64,000 bases of DNA from an uncultured Pseudothermotoga sp. Its GTDB lineage: Bacteria > Thermotogota > Thermotogae > Thermotogales > DSM-5069. The stretch lies in the NCBI GenBank assembly GCA_937995655.1, contig CALKJI010000001.1, positions 62,001-126,000 on the forward strand. The letters run 5' to 3'. Both the position numbers and the translations under genes were made by a program. Shown piece by piece: positions 1,073 to 54,458 of this stretch. The notes under the pieces are model-generated. The model ran no database searches, had not been told where the DNA came from, and worked only from the letters and a program-made list of their open reading frames with translations. The stretch's first letter is position 1, and each line of letters begins with the position of its first letter.

Positions 1073-1393
1073 TTGATATTAGCAACAACCGAGAGAATTG
1101 AAGGTTATGAAATTATTGAAACGCTTGGCCTTGTAATGGGAAATACCGTTCACTCAAAGCACCTTGGTAAAGACATAGCAGCTGCTTTCAAAACACTAGC
1201 TGGCGGGGAGATCAAATCCTATACAGAACTTCTGACTGAAGCAAGAAATATTGCCATGCAACGAATGATAAGTGAGGCAGAAAAACTCGGAGCTGACGCC
1301 ATAGTAGGCATTCGTTTTGGTAGTGCTGCGATCATGCAATCTGCTGCCGAAGTCCTTGCTTACGGAACGGCCGTAAAGATCAAGAAGATCTAA
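1073..1393 (+). CDS. YbjQ family (UPF0145) protein
   Basis: A 106-residue protein matching the YbjQ/DUF74 family, small pentamer-forming proteins of unknown role sometimes labelled heavy-metal binding. Family hallmarks seen are the N-terminal IEGYEIIETLGLVMGNTV stretch and the C-terminal GADAIVGIRF. The TTG start at 1073 is chosen because an AAAGGAGGTG ribosome site lies 8 bases upstream. The last codons overlap the 3' end of the convergent lysA by 14 bases, so no terminator fits between them. A TTGACA hexamer lies at 1014-1019 but no well-spaced -10 box was found. Confidence 0.85.
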   Translation: MILATTERIEGYEIIETLGLVMGNTVHSKHLGKDIAAAFKTLAGGEIKSYTELLTEARNIAMQRMISEAEKLGADAIVGIRFGSAAIMQSAAEVLAYGTAVKIKKI

Positions 1394-2528
1394 GTAGTTC
1401 TTTCCCGTTCCAGATGATCTCTTTTGGTTTTGGTATCAGATTGTAATCGGATGCCATGGCATAACCGTAGGCTCCCACATCGCATATAGCTACATACTCA
1501 CCTTCTTGCGGTTCTGCCATGGTATATGATTTTCTGAACGTGTCCGCGCTTTCACAGATGGGCCCAACGATATCTGCTTTGATTTTCTTTCTGTTTTTCG
1601 TCTCGTACAAAGGAATTATCTTATGTTTTGCCCCATACAGGGCTGGTCTTATGAGATGAGTCATACCTGTATCGAGCATAATGAAGATTTTACTTGAGGT
1701 TCTCTTCACATATTCTACTCTGGCAACCAGGTATGCCGAAGGTGCGACAATCCATCGACCCAGCTCTAAGATGATTGTCGAGTCAAATTCCTTAAGAATG
1801 GGAAAGATCTTTTGTTTGTAATCTCCAAGATCAAGAACCTTACCGTTGCCATAGTCTATACCCCAGCCACCACCAAGGTTCAGTACCTTTAACTTTAAAT
1901 TCATCGATTTTGCAAAGTATTTTATGGAGACAACTGCCTCGAGATACGGTTCTACTTCTGTGATTTGCGAACCTATATGACAGTGAAGGCCTATGAAATC
2001 AAACATTTTGTTGGTGTTTATTCTTTCAATCATCTTGGCTGCTGTATCAAAATCAACACCAAACTTGTTTTCCTTTAAACCTGTTGCAATGTGATGGTGT
2101 GTCTTTGCATCTACATCTGGATTGACTCTAATAGAAACTCTAATTGGTTTTGAGAGAACCTTTTCAAGTCTCAACAATTCTTCATAACTGTCAAGGTTTA
2201 TAGAAAAGACCCCGTCTTTTACATATTGTTCAAGCTCTTCTTTTCTTTTACAGTTGCCATTGACGATTATCCTGTCTGGCGTGAAACCGACCAAACGGAC
2301 TTGTTTGTATTCCCCAAAGGAAACCACATCGACCATCGTGTTTTCTTTTTCAAGAATACTCAAGATATCTTTATTGAAATTGGCTTTTACAGCATAAGCG
2401 AGTCGAAAATCGAAATCTTTGAACATTTCTTTGAGGAGAGAAAGTCTTTGGTGGATGAAAGGAAGGTCGTAGACGTAGATAGGAGTACCAAAAGACTCTG
2501 CGGCTTCTACAAGCGTGTGGGAATCCAT
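1380..2528 (-). CDS. lysA: Diaminopimelate decarboxylase
   Basis: Converts meso-diaminopimelate to L-lysine with pyridoxal phosphate, the last step of lysine synthesis. The 382-residue product has the fold type III layout: AYAVKAN with the PLP lysine at about residue 48, HCHIGSQ in the barrel, GGGWGIDYG for phosphate binding, and CESADTF carrying the active-site Cys of the partner subunit. An upstream in-frame ATG at 2543 exists, but AGAGGTGATC ends two bases before the ATG at 2528, which is taken as the start. The gene follows the aromatic amino-acid transporter ATPase by 28 bases on the same strand and may be the last gene of that operon. Confidence 0.93.
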   Translation of the reverse strand: MDSHTLVEAAESFGTPIYVYDLPFIHQRLSLLKEMFKDFDFRLAYAVKANFNKDILSILEKENTMVDVVSFGEYKQVRLVGFTPDRIIVNGNCKRKEELEQYVKDGVFSINLDSYEELLRLEKVLSKPIRVSIRVNPDVDAKTHHHIATGLKENKFGVDFDTAAKMIERINTNKMFDFIGLHCHIGSQITEVEPYLEAVVSIKYFAKSMNLKLKVLNLGGGWGIDYGNGKVLDLGDYKQKIFPILKEFDSTIILELGRWIVAPSAYLVARVEYVKRTSSKIFIMLDTGMTHLIRPALYGAKHKIIPLYETKNRKKIKADIVGPICESADTFRKSYTMAEPQEGEYVAICDVGAYGYAMASDYNLIPKPKEIIWNGKELLRSS

Positions 2529-2556
2529 AAGATCACCTCTCATAAAAGTCGATGTC

Positions 2557-3303
2557 CTAAGTTGTGCTAAACACTGTAGATCTTATCATGGATTTCAGTT
2601 GAGAAGCCACCACTTTTTGTTGCGATTTGTCTATTTTTGTGCAAATCTTTCCATCTTCCATCACAACGACATTGTTACCAAATTGTTCTGCAAGTAACAT
2701 ATCATGTGTGATCATTACAATAGTGGTACCGAGTTCTCTGTTTATTTTATCGGTTAGCTCCATGATCTTTTCCGTACTCTTCGGATCCAGCGCCGCTGTG
2801 TGTTCATCCAAAAGTAGTAACTTGGGATTTGATGAAACGGCCATCACTATAGCCAATGCCTGCTTTTGTCCGCCAGATAGCTTGGACGCCTTCCTTTTCA
2901 AAGACCCCTCTAGACCCATTCCAGTAGACTTTAGTAGATCTATACTCGTGGATGAAATTCTGCCAAAACTAAAGCCTCTCATACCTTTTCTACCTGCAAG
3001 TATGAGATTTTCTTCCACCGTCAGATTCGGAAATACACCTTGGTTTGGGTCCTGACAAACTATGCTGGTCTTTTTGAATATCTTCTCAGAAGTCACAGGC
3101 ACACCAAGAATTTTACAAACACCTTGAATCGGTTTCACTTCACCTACGAGTAACTTCAAAAGTGTTGACTTTCCAGCACCATTTGATCCAACCACGACCA
3201 AGAATTCGCCTTCATTTACCTTGAGAGAAATATCTCTCAAAGCCACCTTTTCATCTAAGGTACCTTTGTTATAAATGACCGTTACATTTTCAATCTCTAT
3301 CAT
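2557..3303 (-). CDS. ABC transporter ATP-binding protein, TrpXYZ-type importer
   Basis: ATPase of the importer encoded with the next two genes. The 248 residues contain Walker A GSNGAGKST, the signature LSGGQKQ, Walker B LLLLDEHTAALDP and the switch His in MITHDM. The frame is open for another 228 bases upstream, but that extension is Cys/Trp-rich shadow of the permease gene; the ATG at 3303 follows GAGGTGACC and overlaps the permease stop as ATGA, so translational coupling is likely. The DEHTAALDP form and the neighbours match the ATPases paired with ABC_sub_bind (PF04392) systems. Confidence 0.93.
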   Translation of the reverse strand: MIEIENVTVIYNKGTLDEKVALRDISLKVNEGEFLVVVGSNGAGKSTLLKLLVGEVKPIQGVCKILGVPVTSEKIFKKTSIVCQDPNQGVFPNLTVEENLILAGRKGMRGFSFGRISSTSIDLLKSTGMGLEGSLKRKASKLSGGQKQALAIVMAVSSNPKLLLLDEHTAALDPKSTEKIMELTDKINRELGTTIVMITHDMLLAEQFGNNVVVMEDGKICTKIDKSQQKVVASQLKSMIRSTVFSTT

Positions 3304-4262
3304 ATGGTCACCTCGCTTCTTTTGAATCTTCTTATTGCGATCACTGCTACAACAAAAAGTGCTGTGAGTAGTTTCATATCGCTCGGTTTGAAGCCAATGC
3401 GATACCCATACTTCATCGCAAAGGTCAACAAAAATTGATACAACAAAGCACCAACGATAGGAAAAATGACACCATAGATCGGCTCGCGAGAGCCAAACAC
3501 AATCTCTCCTAAAATCACCGCAGCAAGGCAAATTACAACGGTACCGATTCCCATATTTACATCTGCAAAACCACTGTACATTGAAAACAAAGCACCTGAG
3601 AAACCAGCAAAAACATTACCCATGATCAAGCCAACAAAGGCAAAGAGATCAGGATTGACTCCTAAAACCTTTACTGCAAAACGATTTCTACCATACCCAC
3701 GAAGCATGGTACCAAACTCCGTTTTAAGAAAGAGTGCAACAATTATGACCGACAACAAAACAATTACAGAGATGATAATAAGGTCATGACCATCTGCAAG
3801 GTTAGTAAAGGGTATTCTTACGGCTTTCAATCCGCTGGCTTCAAAGTTTGTATTTGCTGAACCGCCGAGAATATCGTCTAAAGGTGTCTTTCCAACTATC
3901 TGCTCATAGCTCTTGATCTTTCCTGTATCAAATTTTGGGACAGGTAGATTTGGTGCATTCATAACTCTGATACTCAATGAATAAAGCCCTGTCATGACCA
4001 TGATTGAAGCAAGTAAAGAATTGATTCTGAACCTTGTTGTTATGAAGGCAACAACAGCACCGGCCGCACCAGCGGCAAGTGCAGCCATAAAGGTTGAAAA
4101 GACCCACCCATGACCGGAATGAAGGAGGACGACCGCGACGGCCCCCCCAAGAACATAGGAGCCATCGGGCGTCAGATCGGGAAGATCAACGAGGCGGAAT
4201 GATATATATACACCCATGGCGGCCAAGGATAATAAGAGTCCTTGTTCAATTATTGGAATCAT
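3300..4262 (-). CDS. ABC transporter permease, TrpXYZ-type importer
   Basis: Membrane subunit of the BPD_transp_2 (branched-chain/ribose-like) class with about eight to nine hydrophobic segments over 320 residues. Conserved permease features include LPDLTPDGSYVLGGA near the N terminus and GYGRNRFAVKVLGVNPD in the cytoplasmic coupling region. The ATG at 4262 overlaps the stop of the binding-protein gene (ATGA), and its own stop overlaps the ATPase start in the same way. The three genes are therefore one translationally coupled unit. In characterised relatives this type of system imports tryptophan or tyrosine; the leader peptide upstream supports an aromatic substrate here. Confidence 0.92.
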   Translation of the reverse strand: MIPIIEQGLLLSLAAMGVYISFRLVDLPDLTPDGSYVLGGAVAVVLLHSGHGWVFSTFMAALAAGAAGAVVAFITTRFRINSLLASIMVMTGLYSLSIRVMNAPNLPVPKFDTGKIKSYEQIVGKTPLDDILGGSANTNFEASGLKAVRIPFTNLADGHDLIIISVIVLLSVIIVALFLKTEFGTMLRGYGRNRFAVKVLGVNPDLFAFVGLIMGNVFAGFSGALFSMYSGFADVNMGIGTVVICLAAVILGEIVFGSREPIYGVIFPIVGALLYQFLLTFAMKYGYRIGFKPSDMKLLTALFVVAVIAIRRFKRSEVTI

Positions 4263-5230
4263 TTAGACACCTCTTTGCCGTCTTTGACAACAATATTGGC
4301 TCTGTCAAGAAGATCTGGCGGTATCTCAACATTGAGTTGTTTTGCTATATCAAGATTTATGTATAAAACAAGTGAATCTGGTCCGACCACATGAGATTCA
4401 AGATCACTTGGTTTGGCTCCCTTGAGCAGAGCAACGAGCAACTGGCCAGTTTCAACTCCAACTTGGAAATAGTTGAAACCAAAACCAACAATCCCTCCAC
4501 CACGTGCTATGTCTATGTCCGCCGCGATTATTGGCTTTTTCAATCTCAAAGCCGCACTACCGATGGCTTCAATCGAAGAAGCAGCGGTGTTGTCAGTCCC
4601 TATATATAGAGCATCCACACTGGGTCCTATACTATTGAGAGCTATGATCATTTCACTTGGAGAGGTACCTGGAATATCGATGATTGTTATTCCAAGTGAT
4701 GGGGCAGCAGATTTAGCAATATTAGTTAGAGTGACAGAGTTTGCTTCCCCGGGGTTGTAAATCACGCCAACTTTCTTGGCGTTTGGAAAGATCTTTTTGA
4801 CCAATCTAAGCTGAGTTGCAACAGGAACCATATCTGATACTCCAACAACATTCGAATCGTTTTTTCCAAGTTGTTTTATCAGTCCAGCACCTACTGGATC
4901 GGTCACAGCCGAAAAGATGACAGGCCTGTCGCTTATCGTCTGAACGCAAGCTTGAGCAGACGGTGTTGCAATGGCAACCACAAAATCTACTTTTTCAGTT
5001 GCAAACTTCTTTGCTATGGTTACAGCATTCTGCATACTTCCTTGTGCATTCTGTCTGTCGATGACAACATCCTGGCCCACTTTGAAACCTGCCTCTTCGA
5101 GTGTTTTAACGATTCCATCAAAGACTGCATTCAGTGCTGGATGATCCACAATCTGCGTTATACCAACCCTGACAGCACCAAAACTTACAACACAAAAGAC
5201 TAAAATTACAGCGGCTATTAACCTTTTCAT
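4259..5230 (-). CDS. ABC substrate-binding protein, tryptophan/tyrosine type (TrpX-like)
   Basis: A 323-residue periplasmic binding protein of family ABC_sub_bind (PF04392). It has a signal peptide (MKRLIAAVILVFCVVSFGA) followed by VGITQIVDHPALNAVFDG, a family-typical N terminus. Other markers are the FAVTDPVGAGL-like segment (FSAVTDPVGAGL) and IYIGTDN-like ALYIGTDNTAASS. The ATG follows GGGGGTGTTAGT. It heads the operon binding protein-permease-ATPase-(lysA). Regulation is visible upstream: strong promoter, leader peptide rich in aromatic codons, and a terminator 26 bases before the start codon. Substrate assignment to aromatic amino acids rests on family plus the leader. Confidence 0.9.
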   Translation of the reverse strand: MKRLIAAVILVFCVVSFGAVRVGITQIVDHPALNAVFDGIVKTLEEAGFKVGQDVVIDRQNAQGSMQNAVTIAKKFATEKVDFVVAIATPSAQACVQTISDRPVIFSAVTDPVGAGLIKQLGKNDSNVVGVSDMVPVATQLRLVKKIFPNAKKVGVIYNPGEANSVTLTNIAKSAAPSLGITIIDIPGTSPSEMIIALNSIGPSVDALYIGTDNTAASSIEAIGSAALRLKKPIIAADIDIARGGGIVGFGFNYFQVGVETGQLLVALLKGAKPSDLESHVVGPDSLVLYINLDIAKQLNVEIPPDLLDRANIVVKDGKEVSK

Positions 5231-5256: not shown

Positions 5257-5289
5257 AAAAAAAGAGGGCATCCTTTTTGGATGCCCTCT
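5257..5289 (-). terminator. Attenuator terminator before aromatic amino-acid importer
   Basis: On the minus strand the arms AGAGGGCATCC and GGATGCCCTCT form a perfect 11-bp stem with an AAAAA loop, followed by seven T residues. It sits between the leader peptide and the binding-protein start, so it must be bypassed for operon expression. Confidence 0.92.
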
Positions 5290-5316
5290 CCCTTTACCTT
5301 TTACAGATTCCCCTGC

Positions 5317-5427
5317 CTATGTACCAAGCACTATTAGGGGAATCTCGGAAGAGGGCATTCCCCTAAACCACCAATAAGCATATGCAAATTGAGCCACCTT
5401 TTGATTTAAAGTCATCCTATACGTCAC
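5317..5427 (-). CDS. Leader peptide with aromatic codon run
   Basis: A 36-residue ORF starting GTG at 5427, seven bases after GGAGG, ending TAG at 5319-5317. Residues 14-23 read FAYAYWWFRG, that is one Phe, two Tyr, two Trp and one Phe within eight codons, an extreme bias for a random short ORF. It starts about 25 bases after the predicted transcription start and ends 28 bases before the terminator stem. The role proposed is sensing of charged tRNA-Tyr, tRNA-Trp and tRNA-Phe for the downstream importer. An in-frame ATG at 5415 is an alternative start but lacks the ribosome site. Confidence 0.8.
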   Translation of the reverse strand: MTYRMTLNQKVAQFAYAYWWFRGMPSSEIPLIVLGT

Positions 5428-5458
5428 ACAGAATCCTCCAAAGAATTTTATTGCTTAC

Positions 5459-5488
5459 ATTATACCAGAGTATCCATTTTAGTGTCAA
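5459..5488 (-). promoter_or_regulatory. Promoter of aromatic amino-acid importer operon
   Basis: Minus-strand TTGACA (5488-5483) and TATAAT (5464-5459), both perfect consensus, with an 18-base spacer. Transcription should begin near 5452, 25 bases before the leader peptide start. Confidence 0.9.
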
Positions 5489-5748: not shown

Positions 5749-5823
5749 GGGTGCGTAGCTCAGTGGAAGAGCGCTTCCTTGACGAGGAAGAGGCCGTAGG
5801 TTCAATCCCTGCCGCACCCACCA
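5749..5823 (+). tRNA. tRNA-Val (anticodon GAC)
   Basis: Acceptor arms GGGTGCG (5749-5755) and CGCACCC (5813-5819) pair fully. The D arm GCTC...GAGC, the anticodon stem CTTCC/GGAAG around loop TTGACGA, and the T arm with GGTTCAATCC are all present. The CCA end is encoded (5821-5823). The anticodon GAC reads valine GTC/GTT codons. Confidence 0.95.
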
Positions 5824-54235: not shown

Positions 54236-54252
54236 TAATTGATTTTCAATTT

Positions 54253-54340
54253 GCTCCCTACGCCGGCATTACCCGGATCAGGTTCAAGGGTCGAGGACTT
54301 CCGTCCTCCTCTCAGCCTCGGATTAGAAGCTCCCCTGCAC
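54253..54340 (-). ncRNA. TPP riboswitch (THI element)
   Basis: The minus strand carries the conserved TPP aptamer: GGGGAGC (start of P1), GGCTGAGAGGA (pyrimidine-binding CTGAGA), a variable P3a stem, GACCCTTGAACCTGATCCGG, then GTAATGCCGGCGTAGGGAGC closing P1. It is followed by a terminator, so thiamine pyrophosphate should stop transcription of thiB-thiP. Confidence 0.97.
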
Positions 54341-54458
54341 AGATATTCACTTACGTTTTTATTGTATCATAAGTAAAAGACTTGGATCAATATCAAAAAT
54401 GGCTAACTGTGAAAAGATGCTGTAAAATTGTTTTGTGCCACGAGAGGAGTGAAAGACT

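Follow-up and report, generated by a model that had tools for sequence, protein, structure and literature searches.

A predicted Phe/Tyr/Trp leader-peptide attenuator upstream of an ABC importer operon, and related leaders across Thermotogota

Results

The importer operon and its binding protein

The window analysed here is a 64,000-nucleotide stretch from the genome of an uncultured Pseudothermotoga sp. (G000, 99.86% complete). Its reverse strand carries the genes for the binding protein, permease and ATPase of an ABC importer, followed by lysA and preceded by a short leader with its own promoter, open reading frame (ORF) and terminator (Table 1). The gene for lysA adjoins the ATPase gene also in L002, from the same genus as the window genome, and in L003, from the same family. 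Given this recurrence, and because lysA directly follows the ATPase gene, it may belong to the importer transcript and thus be under aromatic control. Between the leader promoter and a divergent inositol-monophosphatase-family gene lies a tRNA-Val (GAC) gene (5749-5823, plus strand), and elsewhere the window holds a TPP riboswitch (RF00059, 74.9 bits; 54238-54346, minus strand).

An earlier note on this DNA had described the importer as TrpX-type. The family assignment stands, as the binding protein belongs to PF04392; the TrpX identity is loose, since the protein scores 249.5 bits against the TrpX equivalog NF041285, below the curated cutoff of 390, and its pocket residues resemble those of a tyrosine binder. 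Among solved structures its nearest relatives are VC_1101 with bound Phe, the Tyr binder CD0873 and the Trp binder SP1069. Two selectivity positions have been reported (PMC6816091). One has Glu in the Tyr binder and Ala in the others; at the other, Tyr-279 by CD0873 numbering, the Trp binder has Gln, a residue reported to permit Trp binding. At the first of these, the Glu-263 position, the window protein carries Asp and so resembles the Tyr binder; at the Tyr-279 position it has Tyr, as do all relatives, and none of these proteins has the Gln. By these residues the pocket looks tyrosine-like, so that the name TrpX should not be taken as proven Trp specificity. In a plasmid search, homologues of the importer were distant, all with less than 60% identity.

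Table 1. Positions of the leader elements and importer genes in the window
Feature	Positions	Strand	Remarks
sigma-70-type promoter	5459-5488	(-)	TTGACA 5488-5483, 18-nt spacer, TATAAT 5464-5459; extended -10 (TG upstream)
leader-ORF ribosome-binding site	5435-5439	(-)	GGAGG
leader ORF	5317-5427	(-)	GTG 5427 to TAG 5317; 36 codons, 36 aa; VTYRMTLNQKVAQFAYAYWWFRGMPSSEIPLIVLGT
control-codon cluster F-A-Y-A-Y-W-W-F	5365-5388	(-)	residues 14-21
segment 1	5357-5366	(-)	TTAGGGGAAT; partner is segment 2
antiterminator 5' arm (arm A)	5347-5358	(-)	ATGCCCTCTTCC
segment 2	5334-5345	(-)	AGATTCCCCTAA; partner is segment 1 or segment 3
segment 3	5305-5314	(-)	AGGGGAATCT; directly after the leader stop codon
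arm 4	5281-5292	(-)	GGGAGAGGGCAT; common to antiterminator (with arm A) and terminator (with arm 5)
intrinsic terminator	5257-5290	(-)	12-bp hairpin 5290-5279/5273-5262 and T7 (5263-5257)
substrate-binding protein, first structural gene	4259-5230	(-)	PF04392 (TrpX-like), E 2.8e-79
permease	3300-4262	(-)	BPD_transp_2; 4-nt overlap with the preceding gene
ABC ATPase	2557-3303	(-)	
lysA (diaminopimelate decarboxylase)	1380-2543	(-)	TIGR01048 above cutoff; 13 nt past the ATPase stop

The leader in the window

The earlier note had placed at this locus a consensus promoter, a 36-codon ORF with its own GGAGG, an aromatic cluster at residues 14-21, a 12-bp antiterminator and a terminator with seven T, and the coordinates of all these parts were confirmed. 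It had also named a competing 8-bp hairpin. A competing pairing does exist, its length being 10 bp in each of two alternatives: segments 1 and 2 can pair (1:2, 5366-5357/5343-5334), as can segments 2 and 3 (2:3, 5345-5336/5314-5305). The antiterminator helix between arm A and arm 4 (5358-5347/5292-5281) includes one G-U among its 12 bp. The promoter reaches a consensus score of 12/12, and comparable promoters lie upstream of the relatives' leaders, most of which have a GGAGG or GGGGG-like ribosome-binding site.

Six aromatic residues (F14, Y16, Y18, W19, W20 and F21) fall within nine positions of the leader peptide. Only one of the 145 ORFs of 15-60 codons preceded by a ribosome-binding site in the 64-kb window reaches this density, the runners-up having four. 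First-order Markov copies of the leader had six aromatics in nine residues in 12 of 20,000 cases, and two Trp in addition in 4 of 20,000. The folding z-score of the leader is -4.0. Against a chance origin, the comparison among genomes described below weighs far more heavily than these figures.

Conservation of leaders before importers

We surveyed 103 Thermotogota genomes, 40 of which encode a close homologue of the binding protein. A PF04392 search across them gave 47 strong importer copies and, beyond these, weak matches only. The proposed conservation of aromatic codons in the leaders of orthologous importers was borne out throughout, as an aromatic-rich leader ORF lies upstream, in the same place, in 47/47 copies. 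The cluster reads FAYAYWWFRG in the window's own family and YAYWFRR in f9 g27; further clusters in f10 are FYFYYFWWKA, AYFYFYWQ, NVYYFRR, VYYFWYKT and YFYFWYWKDT, and others before importers include YYYWYGK and CEYGWWHRG. Aromatic residues are retained among relatives while Phe and Tyr codons change synonymously. The N-termini of the leaders cannot be aligned among relatives, the stretch after the cluster diverges as well, and a search for an invariant column in 23 diverse leaders found none. In the L025 leader a 1-nt shift past the cluster yields a new peptide tail (LSWTPPLCA) and leaves the RNA arms intact, which argues for selection on the RNA, and not on the peptide, downstream of the cluster. 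In most leaders the residue next to the cluster is Arg, Lys or His (WFRG, FRR, WWK, WYWK, WWHR, WWWHL), encoded at 5364-5362 in the window; this basic residue may reflect an RNA-pairing constraint or an effect of the peptide.

Conservation and re-coding of the RNA switch

Each of the 46 leaders measured has a terminator ahead of the importer. Counted from the first base of the last aromatic codon, arm A begins 5-13 nt further on in all 46, a spacing at which a stalled ribosome would be predicted to leave arm A free. Complementarity between arm A and arm 4 exceeded that of shuffled sequences (at most 5/300 as good) in 40/46 leaders. Nearly all arm-4 bases paired in the terminator also pair with arm A.

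Compensatory changes between 5281-5292 and 5347-5358, suggested as a check in the earlier note, were found at two depths. Within the close family (11 relatives) each helix, antiterminator and terminator, has 2 pairs with two-sided changes, and 94% of cells in the antiterminator and 100% in the terminator are paired, as against about 41-67% for slid partners. Between clades the arms are fully re-coded together with their matched partners: arm A and arm 4 read GCCCTCTTCC and GGAAGAGGGC in the own family, ACGTCCTTTCTT and GAGAGAGGACGT in g27, AGACACCCA and TGGGTGTCT in f10, and GGCATCCAC and GTGGATGCC in g32, and the arm sequence of G018 is ACCCTTTC. Among 15 diverse leaders, pairing with the leader's own arm 4 averaged 23.4, against 17.3 (sd 1.0) for permuted partners, with 0/20,000 permutations as good. 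Two-sided counts from 11 related sequences are modest alone, and it is the between-clade test that carries weight.

Leader codons and target genes

Tandem or paralogous importers occur at loci L034, L040, L042, L043 and L045. G006 and G007 combine Phe leaders (FVFAFRT / FAFAFRT), Tyr leaders (VYAYYRA / LYAYYRA) and mixed leaders (VYYFWYK / VYGFWYR). The tandem copies of these two genomes group together in the binding-protein tree, a placement consistent with duplication followed by re-coding. One importer copy of G018 has a mixed leader and one a WWW leader; those of G046 have WWW, FSFF and FSFYFYYW leaders. Given that the FSFF and FSFYFYYW leaders share their N-terminus (MIKDNNKNLINIFSF), a recent duplication with rewritten control codons is likely in G046. 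Phe takes the place of the pocket Asp in the Phe-only copies of G006 and G007 and in the WWW copy of G018; the Trp-only and Phe-only copies of G046 keep the Asp. That loss of the Asp tracks leader type is therefore suggestive only, and with the G046 copies retaining it the pocket residues serve as a partial predictor of leader type at best.

Leaders of the same kind precede biosynthetic genes. A Trp-only leader followed by a terminator was found before a trpE-family gene in 5/16 upstream regions, from five genomes (L053, L056, L062, L063 and L065), with clusters INWWWHL, RTWWWHL, NNWWWKI, NNCWWHR and NNGWWYR, the last having its Trp pair followed by a single Tyr. We left out the ORFs with a WW pair that lie before trpE in L057, L058 and L059, as a search of these loci gave no terminator and the ORFs apparently fall within upstream genes. 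DAHP synthase is the entry to all three aromatic pathways, and a mixed Tyr/Phe/Trp leader precedes its gene in 26 of the 30 loci tested (L069 at 1589-1470, minus strand, and L073-L101). Such leaders occur also in family f3 (YYYFWFNRGTCP), and in G057 the DAHP-synthase leader (FFYAYWFRGMPSS) is much like the importer leader (FSYAYWFRGTPSS). A terminator-like hairpin was present in all 22 DAHP-synthase leaders examined and a significant antiterminator arm in 12 of the 14 with a measurable arm. The putative control codons follow the product of the operon, be it trp, DAHP synthase or tandem importers, and predicted attenuation in Thermotogota extends beyond the importer.

Aromatic physiology and T-boxes

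Searches for DAHP synthase (TIGR01361), chorismate synthase, TrpE and prephenate dehydratase gave no match in G000, while control genomes and relatives did match. With these genes lacking a match, auxotrophy for Phe, Tyr and Trp is probable, and the organism would rely on import to obtain them. We considered whether the leader type is tied to the loss of biosynthesis, and in general it is not: genomes of f10 g34 have aroC, PDT and TrpE-family matches and carry the leader as well, so it does not depend on auxotrophy. The earlier suggestion that all three aromatic amino acids are sensed gains indirect support from the three routes without genes and from relatives' leaders that vary with the target gene.

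T-boxes (RF00230) were found in 0/103 genomes, control genomes matching, and Rfam gave only chance-level matches at the leader locus. A T-box riboswitch at this locus is thereby ruled out, in agreement with earlier surveys (PMC2494555, PMC3766115).

Discussion

Proposed mechanism

The leader very probably controls an aromatic amino-acid ABC importer by ribosome-mediated transcription attenuation, with the charging of tRNA-Phe, tRNA-Tyr and tRNA-Trp as the signal. Shortage of any one of these charged tRNAs would stall the ribosome within F-A-Y-A-Y-W-W-F, where it would cover segment 1 and leave arm A free. Segment 2 would then pair with segment 3 and arm A with arm 4, so that RNA polymerase would get past the site before a terminator could fold, allowing expression of the importer. 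With all three plentiful, the ribosome would reach the stop codon and cover segment 3; segments 1 and 2 would pair and hold arm A in their loop, arm 4 would pair with arm 5, and transcription would end near 5257. The parts, their order and spacing, their conservation and re-coding and the match between codons and target are read from the DNA, and from these we infer translation, stalling, a kinetic choice and a response to amino acids.

Folding of the window leader is consistent with both proposed states. With a ribosome at the stop codon the full transcript forms 1:2 and the terminator; with a ribosome stalled at W20 and arm 5 not yet made, A:4 forms and encloses a nested 2:3. Arm A is at least 75% paired with arm 4 at all six stall positions. 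Equilibrium folding as proof of switching was tried and set aside, as it did not separate the states: the terminator was preferred in the full transcript whatever state was tried, and in transcripts that do not yet include arm 5 most leaders favour A:4 with no ribosome present at all. The fold with a ribosome at the stop also varies between clades and does not hold generally (median P(1:2) 0.01), the 1:2 hairpin being weak or unclear in some of them. Since folding energies alone do not make a switch, the switch must be kinetic and timing-dependent. A kinetic choice is generally assumed for leader-peptide attenuators. None of the observations contradicts the proposed mechanism, although the binding pocket lacks the Gln reported for the Trp binder, yet the window leader has two Trp codons.

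Alternative explanations

Food for thought is whether the leader reads mainly Trp, the rarest of the three, with Tyr and Phe codons incidental or kept for other reasons. This would be a narrower version of the three-tRNA mechanism rather than one that excludes it, and we regard it as unlikely, if worth keeping in mind. The two adjacent Trp codons are best placed to expose arm A, and a Trp auxotroph would be likely to run short of this amino acid. However, Tyr and Phe codons stay when Trp drops to one (L015-L025) or none (L026, NVYYFRR), leaders specific for Tyr or Phe alone exist, and the pocket looks tyrosine-like. Intergenic DNA often contains short ORFs and terminators, and the ORF and hairpins could have come together by chance, or the terminator could be a plain one between transcription units that does not switch; the comparative data already refute this, as the arrangement is kept in 47/47 copies, its arms are matched across clades and its cluster is rare both in the window and in Markov copies, and its probability is close to nil.

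Two further explanations retain a translated leader and change the signal. The ribosome could be stalled through its nascent chain by a free aromatic amino acid instead of an uncharged tRNA, as in a TnaC-type arrest peptide. The leader does contain Trp, and arrest peptides control termination too. TnaC, which senses free Trp, requires strictly conserved Trp12 and Asp16 (PMC8429421), whereas the leaders described here have no fixed residues: both flanks of the cluster diverge, and the cluster itself varies among WWW, FAFAF, YAYY and FYFWYW. Moreover, an importer would be expected to be induced by shortage and not by excess, and we hold arrest by a free amino acid to be very improbable. Alternatively, the leader could respond to a general slowing of translation, like the antibiotic-inducible bmrB, ermC and msrD leaders, which precede ABC genes and use transcription attenuation (BmrC/BmrD). 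Here, however, the target is an importer of an aromatic-binding family and no resistance gene, in three classes of target gene the leader residues agree with the product, and they are aromatic in all 47 importer copies; sensing of slowed translation seems slightly more improbable still than an arrest peptide.

Relation to known systems

The attenuators of trp, phe (pheA, pheST), his, leu and ilv in Proteobacteria share with these leaders an ORF with control codons, a terminator and an antiterminator exposed by stalling. The present case differs in phylum, in having an importer as target and in bringing three aromatics together in one cluster. Additionally, in the window leader the antiterminator would enclose 2:3, and the stop codon would place the ribosome over segment 3 and not over an antiterminator strand. 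Leaders that read several amino acids are known from E. coli, namely thrL (Thr, Ile) and ilvL (Ile, Val, Leu). These are alike in principle, with other amino acids and biosynthetic operons as targets.

Outside the Proteobacteria, the trp attenuators of Corynebacterium and Streptomyces (PMC1262725) likewise combine alternative hairpins with leader peptides in which UGG codons stand in twos or threes; they serve biosynthetic trp operons and trpS and read Trp only, whereas the Thermotogota importer leader is mixed, and it is the Trp-only trpE leaders of Thermotogota that resemble them. The trpXYZ T-box of Streptococcus suis controls an importer of the same PF04392 family by transcription attenuation in response to uncharged tRNA (PMC9382623). 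That RNA needs no translation, since it contacts the tRNA itself, and it is specific for one amino acid, while the Thermotogota leader would be translated. In Acholeplasma, uORFC-13-1 upstream of aroF is a predicted Phe-codon leader ORF with a terminator before DAHP synthase (PMC8632094); the phylum and the motif are different, and the DAHP-synthase leaders of Thermotogota mix Tyr, Phe and Trp.

Novelty and meaning

An earlier survey knew leader peptides from Proteobacteria and Actinobacteria and, for hisS, from Bacilli (PMC2965389). Amino-acid attenuators have been described as probably gamma-proteobacterial in origin, the Thermotogales set having been discussed for other motifs (PMC3766115), and leader statistics for Thermotogae were uninformative (PMC4833913). 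Like the earlier note, which knew of no description for such an importer in Thermotogales, we found none of such attenuation in Thermotogota in the open-access literature; an earlier mention elsewhere, for example on Thermotoga trp genes, is possible. The mechanism as such is known, and what is new is the phylum, the importer target, the mixed cluster for three amino acids and the re-coding among paralogues. A conserved version in a largely thermophilic phylum alters the picture of leader-peptide attenuation as all but limited to Proteobacteria and Actinobacteria (PMC2965389) and of probable gamma-proteobacterial origin (PMC3766115).

On balance we favour, with some reserve, a broader reading in which the phylum controls aromatic amino acids by translated leaders and not by T-boxes. 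The mixed cluster before the importer and DAHP synthase would act as an OR gate, answering to a shortage of Phe, Tyr or Trp, and Trp-only clusters would serve the trp operons. Importer duplication would have been followed by re-coding of leaders for a single amino acid, be it Phe, Tyr or Trp, so that the leader may read out the substrate of the importer. Where one genome has paralogues with Phe, Tyr, Trp or mixed leaders, substrates could thus be predicted for importers indistinguishable by homology. The conserved leaders also provide natural pairs in which the control codons are the main difference. In two lineages a pocket residue of the binding protein changes along with the leader type.
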